Below, piece after piece: positions 34,618 through 41,884 of a DNA stretch of 64,000 nucleotides. The position numbers and the translations under genes were made by a program. The stretch's first letter is position 1; each line of letters opens with the position of its first letter. The stretch comes from Spiribacter salilacus. GTDB lineage: Bacteria > Pseudomonadota > Gammaproteobacteria > Nitrococcales > Nitrococcaceae. The notes under the pieces were generated by a model. The model was not told the origin of the DNA and did not search any database. It was given only the letters and a program-made list of their open reading frames with translations. The DNA lies in NCBI RefSeq assembly GCF_009649225.1, contig NZ_WJPP01000003.1, positions 186,001-250,000 on the forward strand, written 5' to 3'.

Positions 34618-35591
34618 GTCAAGCCATTCGCATTCACGCCCACGGTGGGCCCGAGCAGTTGCAACTAGAATCGGTCGATACGCCCACGCCCAATACTGGC
34701 GAGGTATTGCTAAAGCAAACCCATATTGGCGTGAACTTTATCGATGTGTACTTTCGCACAGGCCTCTACCCGCCCCCGGCACTGCCATTTACCCCTGGTA
34801 TGGAAGCGGCCGGAGAGGTAATTGCCGTTGGGCCCGGGGTAGATACGCTACGCGCCGGTCAGCGCGTTGCCTACGCCACACCGCCAGTAGGTGCCTATGC
34901 CAGCGAGCGGGTTATGCCCGCCGATCGGCTCGTTCCATTGCCCGATGACATCGATAACGCCACGGCAGCCGCCATGATGTTGCGGGGCATGACGGCCCAC
35001 ATGCTGTTGCAACGGGTTATCAACATTCAAGCGGGTGATCACATTTTAGTGCATGCCGCCGCCGGCGGGGTTGGGCTTATCCTGTGTCAATGGGCGGCCG
35101 CCATCGGTGCAAACGTGATCGGTACGGTAGGTAATGCAGAAAAAGCCGCACTGGCAAAAGCCCATGGCTGTACCCATACCGTGCTTTACGATGCCGAGGA
35201 TGTTGCCAGCCAAGTCCGTGATCTAACAGGCGGGCAGGGTGTGCGTGCGGTATACGACTCCGTTGGTGCTAGCACGCTGGCCAGCTCACTGGATTCATTG
35301 GCCAAACGCGGGTTGTTAGTGAGCTTTGGTCAGTCCTCCGGCCCACCGCCTGCTATCGAGGTTGGGGTTCTGGCCCGCAAAGGCTCGTTGTTTTTAACGC
35401 GCCCCACCTTGTTTGACTACATCGATACCCGAGAATCACTGCTCGAGGCGGCAGAGGCGCTATTTGCCCGCGTTCGGCAGGGAGAAATTCATATTCATGC
35501 GGCACATCAATACCCGCTCAAAGATGCGGGGGCTGCACATACCGCGCTAGAGAGCCGTCAGACCACCGGCTCAACCACGCTGGTGGTCTAG
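34614..35591 (+). CDS. qor: NADPH:quinone oxidoreductase (zinc-independent MDR)
   Basis: A 325-aa medium-chain reductase of the quinone oxidoreductase group. It has GVNFIDVYFRTGLYP and PFTPGMEAAGEV near the start and the nucleotide-binding AAAGGVGLILCQWAAAIGANVIGT near 145-170. It lacks the Cys and His zinc ligands of alcohol dehydrogenases. It likely reduces quinones by one or two electrons with NADPH; the true substrate is uncertain. It is the last gene of a run of coupled genes that begins after lpdA. Its 3' end overlaps the convergent hemY by 21 bp. Confidence 0.9.
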   Translation: MSQAIRIHAHGGPEQLQLESVDTPTPNTGEVLLKQTHIGVNFIDVYFRTGLYPPPALPFTPGMEAAGEVIAVGPGVDTLRAGQRVAYATPPVGAYASERVMPADRLVPLPDDIDNATAAAMMLRGMTAHMLLQRVINIQAGDHILVHAAAGGVGLILCQWAAAIGANVIGTVGNAEKAALAKAHGCTHTVLYDAEDVASQVRDLTGGQGVRAVYDSVGASTLASSLDSLAKRGLLVSFGQSSGPPPAIEVGVLARKGSLFLTRPTLFDYIDTRESLLEAAEALFARVRQGEIHIHAAHQYPLKDAGAAHTALESRQTTGSTTLVV

Positions 35592-36755
35592 CGCGCTGCG
35601 GTAAGCAAGCCGTGCCTGATCACTCTCGCCGAGCTGCTCATAAAGCTCGGCGAGGGCTTGATCGATATCAGAGCGATCGCTACGCGCTGCGGCTGCCTCT
35701 AAGTAGCTGCGTGCCTGTCCCCATAACTCACAATGCATCGCCTGCCGCGCCGCGGCAAAAAGCAAATCGGCATCTTCGGGGCGTTCATTAAGCCATTGCT
35801 GCGCCTGCTCATACGCTTGATGGGGCGGGTCAGAGACGATCTCACCAAACACATCCACCAACACGGCATCCCAACGCGCCTTAAGCCACCGCTTGAGTAA
35901 CTGCAGTGCATGCGCTGGGCAACCGGCGGCCATTAAGGCCCGCAAATAGCGCGCACGCAGCAGGCTGTCGGCCTGGCGGTTGCGCGGCAAGCGCTTCCAA
36001 ACCGCCTCAAGATCACGGGCGGTTGCATCCGGCCCTAAGTCCAGCAATGCCTGCTCAAAAGCATGCGCTTCGATGCGCACAATACGCTCCTCAGGTAAGG
36101 CTTTTTCTCGTCGCAACTCGGGCAGCAGATTCGCCAGGCCCTCATCATCACCCACGGCCTCTAAGGCTTGGGCATATAGTGTGAGTACGCGATGGTTTCT
36201 TGGTGCCTGCTCACGCAACCAGCCCAGCGTTGCAATGGCCTCTTCCCACTGTCTAACCTCGGCCTGCAGCTGAGCTTGCAGCAGCCCCACCGCCACTCTT
36301 GCCCGCGGCTCTGCTTGATCGGCAAGCGCTAAGGCTTCATCTCGCGCCTGCCAGTCGTCTTCTCGCTGCGCTGCCACTGCAGAAAGCAAATGACTAAACA
36401 GCGGTAATTCTGATTTTTCCGCGGTGCCCGATAAATGCCGGCGGGCATCGCTATAGCGCCCCTCTGCTAACTCAATTAACGCGTCAACCAAATGCTCGCG
36501 TGAGCGCACTAGCTGACGATTATCCCAGCGCTCCTTTAGCCCGGATGGCGTACGCGATATTCCTCGTATAATCCATAGCACCAGCGTGACGGCTGCCCAT
36601 GCCACTGCCAGGCCTAAAACGGCAATAAACAGGCTAGCCTGCACCGTCAATTCACCCAGTCGAATGAGCACAAATCCGTTTTGGCGATCAAACCACAGTG
36701 CCGCCGCAACACTGCCAACGAGAACGACCACCATAAGCAGCAGCCGACGCATCAT
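35571..36755 (-). CDS. hemY: HemY protein, membrane-anchored TPR protein of haem synthesis operon
   Basis: A 394-aa inner-membrane protein with two N-terminal membrane segments (MRRLLLMVVVLVGSVAAALWF and LFIAVLGLAVAWAAVTLVLWII in pieces, residues 2-60). A HemY N-terminal domain and TPR-like helices follow to the end. It is encoded after hemX as in E. coli hemCDXY; its biochemical role in haem synthesis is not settled. It is unrelated to the Bacillus protoporphyrinogen oxidase of the same name. The start overlaps the hemX stop by ATGA; a second ATG directly follows and could be used instead. Confidence 0.92.
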   Translation of the reverse strand: MMRRLLLMVVVLVGSVAAALWFDRQNGFVLIRLGELTVQASLFIAVLGLAVAWAAVTLVLWIIRGISRTPSGLKERWDNRQLVRSREHLVDALIELAEGRYSDARRHLSGTAEKSELPLFSHLLSAVAAQREDDWQARDEALALADQAEPRARVAVGLLQAQLQAEVRQWEEAIATLGWLREQAPRNHRVLTLYAQALEAVGDDEGLANLLPELRREKALPEERIVRIEAHAFEQALLDLGPDATARDLEAVWKRLPRNRQADSLLRARYLRALMAAGCPAHALQLLKRWLKARWDAVLVDVFGEIVSDPPHQAYEQAQQWLNERPEDADLLFAAARQAMHCELWGQARSYLEAAAARSDRSDIDQALAELYEQLGESDQARLAYRSALDHQRG

Positions 36756-37843
36756 TCGTCTCCTATCGCATTAACAAGGCCTTGCAATGGCCCTTGAATG
36801 TTGGGCGGCTCAGCAACCACGATGCGCTCACGCAACTCGCTAATCCGCTCACGCACATCAACCACCTCAGGCGCTAGCGTATCGAAGTACGCGCCAACCC
36901 AGCCATCAATCTGCACTAGGGCTGCGTCATAAACTTCGGCATCACCCACTAAAGCGGCAAGCCGTGCTGACTCCACCTTCATTTGCAGGGTTTGCTGCAG
37001 CAAAAATCGCTCTTCTGGATCTGGCAATGGCACAACTGTACGGTCTCGGCTTACCACCACCAGCCCTTCTAAACCGGCCACAAACCGGCTCCAAGCGCGC
37101 TGTACTCGTTCCCAAGCACCCGTGGGTGTTGGCTCTGTTTCTGCTAAAGGCTCTGCGCTGCCAGCGGTTGGCTCAATGTCTTGGGCCAGCGGTAATGCAT
37201 CCAAGCGCTCGGCCAGTGCCGTTAAGCCTTGCGTAATTAGCGGTGTTTCTGGGCGATCAGCCTGCAGTACCCGATCTACCGCCTCAGCAATGGCGGCGCG
37301 CCCATCAATGCCTGCGCCTCCCATCTCAGCCAGCAACCCATCGGCCGTCTTTAAGGCCTCTAGCGCCCCTTCGTAATCGGCATTAAACCGCAGGCGATTA
37401 ATGGCCAACCTTGCCAGCCAAGCGGCCTCTGCCTCTTGCCAGTTGGTTTCCTCAGACTCTTCTGCCTGTTGGCTTAAGGCATCGCGCAGATCATCCACGC
37501 GATTTTCAAGCCGCGCCACCCCCTCAAGGCGGGACTCCAGCGCTTGGTTAAGCACCGTGACTCGTCCGGCCATTTCGCCCAACTGCTGCTGCACGTCAGA
37601 AACAAGGTTTTGTTGAACAACAGCCTGCTCATTTAAGCGCTGATCAAAATACCAACCGGCACCACCACCCGCAGCCGCAATCAAACCAATCAAAAGAAAG
37701 GCCATCACGGGCCATAGGCGACTGGGCTTTGCCGGCTTATCAACCGGCTCTGAAGAGCCCGGGGTTACCGAGGTGTCCGGGGTGTCCGGTGTCTTCGGGT
37801 CTTCCGGCGTTGGTTCCGCTTCAAGGTCTTTTTTATCGCTCAT
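36752..37843 (-). CDS. hemX: HemX-like membrane protein
   Basis: A 363-aa protein with an acidic, Pro/Thr-rich cytoplasmic N-terminus (about 40 residues). One membrane helix follows (WPVMAFLLIGLIAAAGGGAGWYF, split near 44-66), then a coiled-coil region (VQQNLVSDVQQQLGEMAGRV onward) and a helical periplasmic domain. It matches HemX, often mislabelled uroporphyrinogen-III methyltransferase; no SAM-binding motif is present. It is coupled to hemD and to hemY by ATGA overlaps. Confidence 0.9.
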   Translation of the reverse strand: MSDKKDLEAEPTPEDPKTPDTPDTSVTPGSSEPVDKPAKPSRLWPVMAFLLIGLIAAAGGGAGWYFDQRLNEQAVVQQNLVSDVQQQLGEMAGRVTVLNQALESRLEGVARLENRVDDLRDALSQQAEESEETNWQEAEAAWLARLAINRLRFNADYEGALEALKTADGLLAEMGGAGIDGRAAIAEAVDRVLQADRPETPLITQGLTALAERLDALPLAQDIEPTAGSAEPLAETEPTPTGAWERVQRAWSRFVAGLEGLVVVSRDRTVVPLPDPEERFLLQQTLQMKVESARLAALVGDAEVYDAALVQIDGWVGAYFDTLAPEVVDVRERISELRERIVVAEPPNIQGPLQGLVNAIGDE

Positions 37844-38592
37844 TTCGTACTCCCTACGCGAGCAGACAGGGCTGCCAGCAAGGCTGCATCATCAGCGCCA
37901 GCGGCAACAACAGGGTCGGCAAACCCCGCCATCACGGCTGCCTGCGCCAGCCGTTCACTTACCGTAACCAAACGGCCTTGTTTAAGCCACTGTAGCGCGG
38001 ATGGCCCTGCCATGCCGAGTAAATATTCCAATCCCGCAGCACTTGTGACAATCAAAAAATCCAGCGCGCTTTGCTGCCAGCCCTCAGGCACGTTCAACTG
38101 CGCAGCCGCGGGTTGTCGATCGTAAACCACCGCTTCTACAACCTGCACACCTTGCGCGCGCAGCGTTTGTTGTAGCTGCTGCCGGCCGCCTGTGCCACAC
38201 ACAAGCAACACGGTTTGCCCGGCCTGCGGGGCAAATTCGGGCGCTGCCAGCAACGCCTCAGCGCCCCCACCTTGTGGTGGCGCTATCACCGATAACGCCC
38301 CGTGCGCGATCATCGCGCTAGCAGTCCCGGGCCCTACCGCGGCCAAACGCGCGGTTTGCTGCCACGCAAGGGGTAGCCGCGGCCAACCGGTGTCTACCGC
38401 AAAGGGGCTGACAAACACAATCCAATCTGGGGGCAAATCCAGCACCGGCAGAGGCGCCTGATTGGGAACTAAAGCCAATGTGGGGCGATGGAGCACCTGC
38501 GCACCGGCGTTTTCCAGCGTTGATACGAGACTATCGCCATGCCCGGCAGGGCGGGTGACAAGCACGCGCTGGCCTTCCAGGGGCAGGCTCAC
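37840..38592 (-). CDS. hemD: Uroporphyrinogen-III synthase HemD
   Basis: Cyclises and inverts ring D of hydroxymethylbilane to give uroporphyrinogen III. The 250-aa protein begins SLPLEGQRVLVTRPAGHGDSL and carries the weak family features DWIVFVSPFAVD, LAAVGPGTASAM and LDFLIVTSAAGLEYLL. The open frame extends to 38829 but that would run deep into hemC. I place the start at the GTG at 38592, four bases after the hemC stop, with GGAG eight bases upstream. It overlaps hemX by ATGA. Confidence 0.92.
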   Translation of the reverse strand: MSLPLEGQRVLVTRPAGHGDSLVSTLENAGAQVLHRPTLALVPNQAPLPVLDLPPDWIVFVSPFAVDTGWPRLPLAWQQTARLAAVGPGTASAMIAHGALSVIAPPQGGGAEALLAAPEFAPQAGQTVLLVCGTGGRQQLQQTLRAQGVQVVEAVVYDRQPAAAQLNVPEGWQQSALDFLIVTSAAGLEYLLGMAGPSALQWLKQGRLVTVSERLAQAAVMAGFADPVVAAGADDAALLAALSARVGSTK

Positions 38593-38596
38593 GGTC

Positions 38597-39526
38597 TTAC
38601 TCCACCGCCGCCAGCAACTCAGCGGCACCCTGAGCAAGCAGCGCTTGGGCAACTGCCTCACCGATCGCTTCGGCATCGCTGCGGCTACCCCGCTGTTCCG
38701 CACGTAAAACCTGCGTTCCATCACGGCTGGCCACCAGCGCTCGAAGCCATAATCCATCTTGCCCCTCAAGCTCGGCATAAGCGGCCAATGGCACATGACA
38801 GCTGCCCTCAAGCCGCGCATTAACGGCACGCTCGGCAGTTACTCGATCGTGCGTATCCGGATCATTCAGGCCCGCCAGCAGGGCCATCACCGTGTCATCT
38901 TCAGCACGGCATTCAATACCCAGCGCACCCTGGCCCACCGCTGGAAGGCTTTCTTCTGGCGGGATGGCGGCACGAATCCGATCAGCCATGCCAAGGCGCT
39001 TAAGCCCCGAAGCGGCCAAAATAATGGCATCAAATTCTCCAGACTCAAGCTTACTCAGCCGCGTTTGCACATTGCCGCGCAGCGACTCAACCTGCAGATC
39101 GGGGCGACGTGCCCGCAACTGACACTCGCGGCGCAAGCTTGCGGTACCCACCCGCGCGCCGGCGGGTAGGGCATCCACCGTGTCATATTTCTCTGAAACA
39201 AATGCATCGCGTGGATCATCACGATCTAAAATAACGGGTAAGCGAAAGGCACCGGGCACCACCGCCGGCACATCTTTCATCGAATGCACCGCAATATCAG
39301 CCCGCCCAGCTAGCATGCCTTCTTCTAATGCCTTAACAAATAATGCTTTACCGCCCACGGCCATGAGTGGGCGATCGGTAATTTCATCACCTCGGGTGGA
39401 CATTCCGACCAGTTCAACTTCCAACCCCGGGTGCAGGTGCTTTAAGCGGGCGGCCACATGCTCTGCCTGCCACATAGCAAGGGGGCTACGACGGGTTGCA
39501 ATTTTAATACTGGTTGGTCTGGACAT
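38597..39526 (-). CDS. hemC: Hydroxymethylbilane synthase HemC
   Basis: Polymerises four porphobilinogens using a dipyrromethane cofactor bound to Cys. The 309-aa protein shows [38 protein letters not shown], the [13 protein letters not shown] region, [11 protein letters not shown] and the cofactor Cys in [13 protein letters not shown] (near residue 241). Most homologues have EGGCQVP at this site; the change to EGSCHVP leaves the Cys intact. First gene of hemCDXY; its own Shine-Dalgarno is weak. Confidence 0.97.
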
Positions 39527-39596: not shown

Positions 39597-40346
39597 CTAA
39601 TGTGGCGGCGATGCAGCGTCCTTTAACCAACGCCTAACCCGGGGCAAATGCCGCCGACTAATCGGCAAGCGCTGCTGCGTTCCCGCCACAAGCGCATGCA
39701 CACGGCCGTCGAGGTCTTTTTCGATACCGCGCAGCGAATCACGTGCCACCAACGCACTCCGATGCAACCGTAAAAACCGCCCGCCAAACTCTGCCTCCAA
39801 CTGCACCAATGAGTCTTCGATTAAATCCTCACCCGCCTCATGCTCGACCGTGACGTACTTATGATCGGCCACAAAGCACCGCACCGCCGATACCGGAATG
39901 AGCCCTAGGCCCGTGCGCCGGCGGCATAATAAATGCGCCCGTGAATCGCCGCCCTCAACATCGGTTTGCAACCGCTCGATTTGCGCAGCTGACATTGGTC
40001 GCGCCAGGCGCAGACGATTCACAATATCGAGGGTTGCCATGGGGTGATACAAAAAGGGCAGCGCTGCTTGGCGATACACGCTAATAAGCGGATCCTGCGC
40101 CTCTGCCACAAACACAATAGCCGGTGCACCCGGTTGCTGGCCCACCATAACGGCGGTTTGCAGATAATCATGCGTTGCCGATGCCGCGTGTAATAAGACG
40201 ACGTCTACGGCCTGCTGCTGGCAGTAATCCCATAGTTCCGCCGGATCCTTAAGTAAGGCCTGCACAGTAATTTCTGCACTCGGCATCAGCTGCCGCACCA
40301 AAGCCTGACGAACATTTAAACTTTCACTTGCGATGATAATATCCAT
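39597..40346 (-). CDS. LytTR transcriptional regulator with degenerate receiver (AlgR-like)
   Basis: A 249-aa protein in the place of algR, next to hemC and divergent from argH as in Pseudomonas. The C-terminal LytTR DNA-binding domain (about 140-245) looks intact: VRCFVADHKYVTVEH, SLVQLEAEFGGRFLRLHRSALVA and LPISRRHLPRVRRWL. The N-terminal half has a receiver fold but not its chemistry. The acidic pair is Ala-Ser (IIIASES), the phospho-Asp position is His53 (DVVLLHAAS), and the switch Lys-Pro is HP (FLYHP). It should not be phosphorylated by the usual route. The ATG at 40346 has GGAGG seven bases upstream; a longer frame reaches 40418. Confidence 0.88.
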   Translation of the reverse strand: MDIIIASESLNVRQALVRQLMPSAEITVQALLKDPAELWDYCQQQAVDVVLLHAASATHDYLQTAVMVGQQPGAPAIVFVAEAQDPLISVYRQAALPFLYHPMATLDIVNRLRLARPMSAAQIERLQTDVEGGDSRAHLLCRRRTGLGLIPVSAVRCFVADHKYVTVEHEAGEDLIEDSLVQLEAEFGGRFLRLHRSALVARDSLRGIEKDLDGRVHALVAGTQQRLPISRRHLPRVRRWLKDAASPPH

Positions 40347-40476
40347 CGATTTGCCTCCAATGTTTTCGCAATGCCGGCACAGATAGCCGGTAACACAGAG
40401 GATGGATGAAGCCGACAACCGGTAACGCCGACTGGTTCACAGGTTGCGCAAATTATTCGGTAGTTATAACGGCTGA

Positions 40477-40489: not shown

Positions 40490-41884
40490 ATGAACAAAAA
40501 AGATAAAAAAGGGCTGTGGAGCGGGCGTTTTACTGAAGCCACAGACGCATTTGTTGCGCAATTTACCGCTTCAGAACACTACGACCGTCGACTCTATCGC
40601 GAAGATATTCGCGGCTCACGCGCACATGCACGCATGCTTGCGGATGTTGGAGTGCTCACACAAGCCGATGCCGAGCAAATTATCGAAGGCCTGAATGCCA
40701 TCGAGCAAGAAATTGAGGCGGGGCAGTTTCCGTGGGATCCAGCGCTCGAAGATGTGCATATGAACATCGAAGCACGCCTAACCGAGCGCATTGGCGAGGC
40801 GGGCAAGCGACTACACACGGGGCGCTCACGCAACGACCAAATTGCAACCGATATTCGGCTGTGGTTGCGTGCGGCCACCGATGAGACTGTTGCGCTGCTG
40901 CGTCATTTCCAAAAAGGCCTAGTTGATTTAGCCGAGCAAGAAGCCGATACCATCATGCCGGGCTTTACCCATTTGCAGGTGGCCCAACCCGTAAGCTTTG
41001 GCCACCATATGCTGGCCTGGTATGAAATGCTGGTGCGCGATGAGGGGCGGTTTATTGACGCCCGTCAGCGTATGAATCAAATGCCACTTGGCTCGGCGGC
41101 CTTAGCAGGCACCACCTTTCCAATCGATCGGCAACAAACCTGTGCTGAGCTCGGTTTTGACCACCCCACACGCAATTCGCTTGATGCGGTGTCCGATCGT
41201 GATTTTGCCATTGAATTTACTTCGGCCGCGGCACTAACGATGACGCATCTCTCGCGTATGGCAGAGGAATTAGTGCTCTGGGCCTCGCCCATGTTTGGTT
41301 TTATTGAGCTGCCTGATCGATTTTGCACCGGCAGCTCAATCATGCCGCAAAAGAAAAACCCAGATGTTGCAGAGCTTGTGCGGGGTAAAAGTGCGCGCGT
41401 GCAGGGCGCCCTGCACACATTACTTACCCTAATGAAGGGGCAGCCCCTGGCCTATAACCGTGACAATCAAGAAGACAAAGAACCGCTCTTTGACGCCGCT
41501 GATGCACTCAGAGATAGCCTGCGCGCCTTTGCCGATATGATCCCAGCAATGAGTGTGAATCGCGATCACACCCGCAATGCGGCTAAAGCGGGGTTTGCCA
41601 CCGCTACTGATCTAGCCGATTACCTCGTACGCCGAGGCGTTGCCTTTCGTGATGCGCATGCCATTGTGGGCCAAGCCGTTGCTCTAGGCGTTACCCAACA
41701 ATGTGATTTGGCTGACCTATCACTAGAAACACTACAGCGCTTTTCCGATGCAATTGAACAAGACGTCTTTGAAGTGCTTACGCTGGAAGGCTCCGTTGCC
41801 GCACGCAACCATTTTGGTGGCACGGCACCGGCTCAAGTGCGTAGCCAAGTGGCGGCCGCGCGCGATCGGCTGGCCAACGACTAG
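40490..41884 (+). CDS. argH: Argininosuccinate lyase ArgH
   Basis: Splits argininosuccinate into arginine and fumarate, the last step of arginine synthesis. The 464-aa protein has the superfamily signature [16 protein letters not shown] near 285-300, with the catalytic-loop Ser. It also has [12 protein letters not shown] and [16 protein letters not shown], and begins with LWSGRF, all expected in ArgH. The open frame begins at 40406, but the conserved N-terminus begins at the ATG at 40490. There is no visible Shine-Dalgarno, which fits a leaderless message. Its stop codon overlaps that of the convergent esterase (CTAG). Confidence 0.97.

Follow-up and report, generated by a model that had tools for sequence, protein, structure and literature searches.

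An AlgR-type LytTR regulator with a pseudo-receiver, probably independent of phosphorylation, beside the haem genes of Spiribacter salilacus and its genus

AlgR is among the best-studied of the LytTR regulators, and the control it exerts has both phosphorylation-dependent and phosphorylation-independent branches. The AlgR of Pseudomonas aeruginosa, which acts with the kinase AlgZ (AlgZ/AlgR, or FimS/AlgR), is described as a protein of 249 amino acids in which a receiver domain precedes the LytTR domain, with Asp7, Asp8, Asp54, Thr82 and Lys102 in the receiver (PMC4064291). Phosphorylated AlgR drives the pilus operon fimU-pilVWXY1Y2E, fimU depending on the phosphorylation; the unphosphorylated protein is reported to regulate algC and algD, and Vfr to activate algZ itself (PMC8787478). 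The gene lies between argH and hemC (PMC5790918, PMC8787478); it shares a transcript with hemCD, and hemC falls when algZR is disrupted (PMC5790918), an effect of which polarity could be the cause. Receivers that lack the phospho-acceptor, known as aspartate-less receivers (ALR) or pseudo-receivers (PsR), are an accepted class (PMC4395418, PMC12632262).

The window analysed here is a stretch of 64,000 nucleotides of Spiribacter salilacus DNA. It carries on its minus strand an algR-type gene (39597..40346), also of 249 codons and of the same receiver-LytTR order as its P. aeruginosa counterpart, with an ATG at 40346 and GGAGG immediately 5' of the start. The LytTR DNA-binding domain (residues 149-241; 39624..39902, minus strand) scores 54 bits in Pfam against a cut-off of 22.6, and had been called well kept in the earlier note; the Response_reg profile reaches 15.2 bits, under its cut-off of 30.2, although a receiver fold is present in the predicted structure. 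In an alignment of the window protein with 51 AlgR relatives, P. aeruginosa AlgR itself lying outside that set, the LytTR residues K163, Y164, H195, R196, S230, R231 and R232 are invariant, and the domain is conserved in the genus. The genomic position is also that given in the earlier note: hemC, named by similarity and position (38597..39526, minus strand), is the next gene downstream on the same strand and the first of a series hemC-hemD-hemX-hemY, the remainder of this presumed operon occupying 35571..38600 on the minus strand with a provisional hemD start, and argH is divergent (40490..41884, plus strand). The sister genera have algZ in the interval from argH to algR. Among 14 genomes of the genus, hemC adjoins algR with argH on the other side in every case, one genome (G008) having a single inserted gene, and hemC, hemD, hemX and hemY follow algR in all 14; hemD was seen in every one of the 14 genus stretches and in four of seven from sister genera. 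Each of the 14 genomes yielded a single AlgR match, and a paralogue standing next to a normal AlgR was therefore rejected; 13 have one LytTR match in all, and G009 has a second, weaker one.

The receiver (residues 1-112; 40011..40346, minus strand) is degenerate. When aligned, Val6-Asp7-Asp8-Glu9 of canonical AlgR falls on Ala6-Ser7-Glu8-Ser9 of the window protein, so that the earlier note, in reading the acidic pair as Ala-Ser, had placed it one residue too early; the pair is Ser7-Glu8. Its identification of His53 at the phospho-acceptor position was confirmed by alignment with intact relatives, as was the absence of the switch Lys, replaced by His101, and to these the present alignment adds the loss of the switch Thr. 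The window protein thus reads Ser7, Glu8, His53, Ala81 and His101 where intact relatives read Asp, Asp, Asp, Thr and Lys, and none of the five residues of a phosphorylatable receiver (D7, D8, D53, T81, K101) is present.

This degeneracy is a property of the whole genus. D7, D53 and K101 are absent from all 14 genomes; at position 8, 11 have Glu and three have Ala, Ser or Arg, and at position 81, four keep Thr and the others have Ala, Ser, Gly or Cys. Two sub-clades differ in what they carry instead. The first, comprising the window protein and that of G008 (90% identical), has Ser7/His53/His101, and the second, comprising the other twelve, has Cys7/Gly53 with Glu or Asp at 101 and a loop after residue 53 that is two residues shorter. 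Outside the genus, D-D-E-D-T-K was read in 75 of 75 distinct AlgR relatives, these coming from loci L015-L030 and L057-L130 after removal of repeated genus genomes and of copies that share an identical 140-residue stretch, and with the AlgZ-centred loci L031-L050 left out of the count. The genus sequences form one clade beside the AlgR of sister genera in a tree of 30 sequences, with support of 100. Given loss in all 14 and a single clade, the residues were most likely lost on the stem of the genus, the sites then being filled differently by the two sub-clades. Strain decay or sequencing error was rejected, since the same loss recurs in 14 of 14 genomes and no homologue within the genus has the normal DD/D/K receiver that the earlier note had named as the sign of such an artefact.

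The partner kinase is missing on the same scale. A profile search for PF06580, the AlgZ kinase family, across whole genomes, as the earlier note had proposed, found it in none of the 14 genus genomes, including none of the nine that are at least 90% complete, and in eight of nine genomes from other genera of the family, where it adjoins algR in all eight. Within a set of 59 genomes, AlgR was found in 43 and PF06580 in 29 of those, and the 14 with AlgR but without PF06580 are exactly the genus. The order argH|algZ-algR-hemC is found in six of seven sister-genus stretches, the seventh having algZ-algR-hemC with argH out of view, whereas all 14 genus stretches have argH|algR-hemC, with one foreign gene after argH in G008. 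At 21 loci outside the genus (between L071 and L129; 19 of the 21 assigned to Lysobacterales genera), the receiver is canonical, hemC is present in 20, and AlgZ was not found within the locus in view, which in 17 of them reaches upstream by more than 2.8 kb; these loci may depend on a kinase encoded elsewhere or of another type, and a missing adjacent algZ is thus not enough by itself for receiver decay.

Two features of neighbouring loci were noted in passing. The insert between argH and algR of G008, the closest relative of the window genome, contains a Vgb/SMP-30-like propeller gene (L051:586-1554, the same DNA in L143), scoring 168.8 bits against streptogramin lyase Vgb, far under the cut-off of 600; an algZ remnant in this wide gap is unsupported, AlgZ queries giving E values of 0.17 or worse. 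In Nitrococcus (genus g2; L159, L160, L161), approximately 1.1-1.8 kb of extra sequence separates algR from hemC, and nearby, in several frames, are fragments similar to the AlgR C terminus, which could be what is left of a second, decayed algR.

Comparison of the genomes thus places D7, D53 and K101, AlgZ-type kinases and algZ at the locus demonstrably among the losses of the genus, with the LytTR domain kept, and the phosphorylation-independent regulator suggested by the earlier note is well supported by this combination; from it we infer activity without phosphorylation. The protein is probably a phosphorylation-independent LytTR factor with a pseudo-receiver, encoded in an algR-hemCDXY operon, in a genus whose ancestor lost both AlgZ and the receiver chemistry. 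As proposed here, loss of the AlgZ kinase in the common ancestor of this genome-reduced, salt-loving genus would have taken the receiver chemistry with it, such that AlgR would no longer accept a phosphoryl group. It would bind DNA as made, with the receiver serving as a structural or dimerisation scaffold, and its output would be set by the amount transcribed from one promoter with a conserved 16-bp element. The job retained would be the phosphorylation-independent branch of AlgR control, the likeliest target being the algR-hemCDXY operon.

A receiver kept as a scaffold after its pocket lost function fits what is seen of its evolution, namely purifying selection together with drift and a kept fold. 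Over six genus pairs, the receiver had a dN/dS of 0.08-0.19 and LytTR one of 0.02-0.12, and in the pair L007/L008 the receiver value equalled, and did not exceed, that of LytTR. Within the genus, receivers share a mean pairwise identity of 0.49 and LytTR domains one of 0.79, compared with 0.74 for both in sister genera; the ratio of receiver to LytTR distance is 3.8 in the genus vs 0.96 in eight sister-genus sequences, and the former ratio over the latter is 3.98 (bootstrap 2.8-6.0). The algR frame is nevertheless open at full length in all 14 genomes. The structure predicted for the window protein (pLDDT 92.3) keeps both folds, the receiver as (beta-alpha)5, and is stronger than that for the canonical AlgR of Arhodomonas (pLDDT 80.9). 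Compared with solved structures, the modelled receiver gave Z scores of 13.5-15.2 and LytTR 15.6 (3d6w), and the top full-length Foldseek match was ComE (4cbv); a PDB search with the sequence of the window protein returned E values of only 0.099 and 0.15.

The same receiver, with its fold intact in the model, might instead sense another signal, as the earlier note had also suggested, be it a thiol or redox state, haem, a metal or a small ligand held in the old pocket, or be modified at a new residue. Redox-switched pseudo-receivers such as RitR and others are known (PMC12632262), the conserved neighbourhood is that of haem synthesis, and the old Asp7 position holds Cys in 12 of the 14 proteins, the other two having His53 and His101. 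However, the alignment yielded no residue set of the old pocket common to both sub-clades, with Ser7/His53/His101 in two proteins and Cys7/Gly53 and Glu or Asp at 101 in twelve, and no regulatory Cys of the RitR type is conserved, the window protein and its closest relative having Ser7. The cysteines of the window protein are confined to positions 42, 141 and 157, with no Cys-Pro haem motif in its sequence. A haem or thiol sensor is unsupported because there is neither a shared pocket set nor a Cys-Pro in the window protein, and the drift of the receiver, approximately fourfold faster relative to LytTR than in sister genera, argues against a newly constrained pocket. Sensing of another signal is hence an unlikely account of this domain.

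More doubtful still is the idea that AlgR is controlled as before, whether through phosphorylation by a non-cognate kinase or through direct binding of another partner protein. Each genus genome contains 8-16 receiver-domain matches, so that phosphorelay systems presumably exist in the genus, and the kinase search covered PF06580 alone. Yet no member retains Asp53, Asp7 or the switch Lys; the place of Asp8 is taken by Glu in 11 and by a non-acidic residue in three, and in P. aeruginosa AlgR phosphotransfer requires Asp54 (PMC4064291). A partner protein may nevertheless bind.

A 16-bp element, TGTGAAC-N3-T[TC]-N-GCG, was found in 14 of 14 genus algR promoters, 57-96 bp 5' of the start codon, and takes the form TGTGAACCAGTCGGCG in the window (40426..40441, minus strand), where it is a candidate operator. 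The window and G008 carry the TC form; the remaining 12 genomes have the TT form, TGTGAACNNNTTNGCG, always at algR and, in G013, at one further site as well. A weak -10-like hexamer of algR, CA[TA]NNT, follows the element after 21 bp in 13 of 14 genomes and after 22 in one; in the window it reads CATCCT (40399..40404, minus strand, 21 bp past the element), a putative promoter part. Were this hexamer the -10, the element would lie at about -49 to -34, an activator position. A place for the element in the argH promoter is unlikely because its distance to the -10-like TATA of argH varies (31-41 bp in the 13 genomes with that TATA), whereas the distance to the algR hexamer is near-fixed.

Allowing up to two mismatches to TGTGAACCGGTTGGCG, the genus gave, among the matches listed, 34 sites, with 13 at algR and 21 elsewhere, the last figure comparing with 10 for the reversed control, again among the matches listed; the algR site of G004 has three mismatches. 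Such sites may point to a wider regulon. G017, which has the best-scoring AlgR outside the genus and possesses AlgZ, carries a close variant of the element upstream of algZ, and no exact match was found in the six other sister-genus stretches. Part of the element, read on the opposite strand, resembles the P. aeruginosa AlgR box CCGTTCGTC, the match being partial only, and TGTGA is a CRP/Vfr half-site. Genome G000 encodes a CRP-like protein scoring 259.6 bits, just below the cut-off of 266; a consensus CRP regulon was rejected, TGTGA-N6-TCACA occurring in 7 of 14 genus genomes at one or two sites each. By these comparisons, a CRP/Vfr-type factor and AlgR itself are about equally likely as binders of the element, which is the best candidate for an operator. 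Whichever protein binds, a single conserved promoter probably governs how much AlgR is made. This agrees with a suggestion in a review of pseudo-receivers, by which members that are always active are regulated through their availability (PMC12632262).

The element and the pocket could be combined by supposing that AlgR has become a one-component regulator devoted to the algR-hemCDXY operon in which it is encoded, with the 16-bp site as its operator. Its pocket would then have been rebuilt, around Cys7 in 12 genomes and around His in two, as an input through which haem synthesis follows redox or haem state. The haem or redox link drawn from gene position in the earlier note stands as far as the algR-hemCDXY linkage is concerned, and goes no further in the window protein, which gave no sign of haem or redox sensing; this combined account is improbable.

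On the phosphorylation-dependent side, the pilus branch of the genus looks, from its gene content, reduced rather than cleanly gone, a reduction that could have made the kinase dispensable. PilY1 was found in none of the 14 genus genomes vs nine of nine from sister genera, and canonical PilM (E<1e-60) in 29 of 29 PF06580 genomes and in none of the 14. In its stead, 13 of these give a distant PilM-like hit at E 1e-13 to 1e-38, and the incomplete G008 gives one at 8e-5 only. The branch is regarded as reduced because a PilT-family ATPase scores above cut-off in six of the 14, G000 not among them, and PilY1 went unseen in seven of the 29 PF06580 genomes as well. In G000, a pil-like row (L229:6710-10298, contig C11) runs from the PilM-like gene, its product under the family cut-off, to a PilQ-type secretin of 367 amino acids, above its cut-off, followed by aroK- and aroB-like frames; of two scanned proteins between them, one had no match and one a weak GspM match. 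The row may serve in DNA uptake or be a relic.

In a different family, f5, eleven genomes (genera g12 and g17; several incomplete) lack all three of AlgR, PF06580 and canonical PilM, eight of them having a PilT-family match above cut-off. That AlgR is likewise on its way out in the genus, its receiver decaying before loss of the gene as in these lineages without AlgR and AlgZ, is the least probable account, for fast receiver drift is there set against a full-length frame in all 14 genomes despite streamlining, dN/dS well under 1 in both domains, a LytTR identity not below that of sister genera, and a conserved promoter element.

The preferred reading, that of a phosphorylation-independent AlgR, sets the window protein apart from P. 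aeruginosa AlgR by the lack of an AlgZ-type kinase, of D7/D54/T82/K102 and of PilY1. In the LytTR Regulatory Systems, a LytTR factor also works outside the kinase scheme, having no known receiver and a membrane inhibitor encoded alongside. Compared with these systems, the subject of PMC6193735, the window algR has argH and the hem genes as neighbours instead. With a predicted receiver fold and neither the acceptor Asp nor the other catalytic residues, the window protein appears to belong among the ALR/PsR proteins. Two such proteins, ChxR and HP1043, have an OmpR-type output. Together with RitR, they are described as combining, as here, a receiver fold without phospho-acceptor, a DNA-binding output and no known kinase partner (PMC4395418, PMC12632262); the output of RitR is OmpR-type (PMC4395418), whereas that of the window AlgR is LytTR, with no Cys switch conserved in the protein. 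No description of a LytTR-output or AlgR-lineage pseudo-receiver was found in the literature, most matches having been judged from listings, and the words LytTR, LytR and AlgR are absent from the main text of the ALR survey (PMC4395418). The pseudo-receiver class is already known; what appears to be new here is a pseudo-receiver in the AlgR lineage with a LytTR output.

The switching mechanisms of pseudo-receivers were termed a mystery in a 2025 review (PMC12632262), and the genus offers a clean natural experiment in which a two-part signalling system has shrunk to one part: kinase, acceptor chemistry and PilY1 are missing together, and what persists is the DNA-binding domain and the association with haem genes. 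Comparison with the intact sister genera would provide a direct test of the role of AlgR without phosphorylation and of the purpose of a pseudo-receiver. By analogy, the closest evolutionary parallel appears to be CosS/CosR of Campylobacter, in which one group is described as having the kinase and a normal Asp, and a thermotolerant sister group as having no kinase and the Asp replaced (PMC3938529). CosR differs in having an OmpR-type output and in that only the Asp is reported as replaced (PMC3938529), whereas three to five active-site residues differ in the AlgR of this genus.
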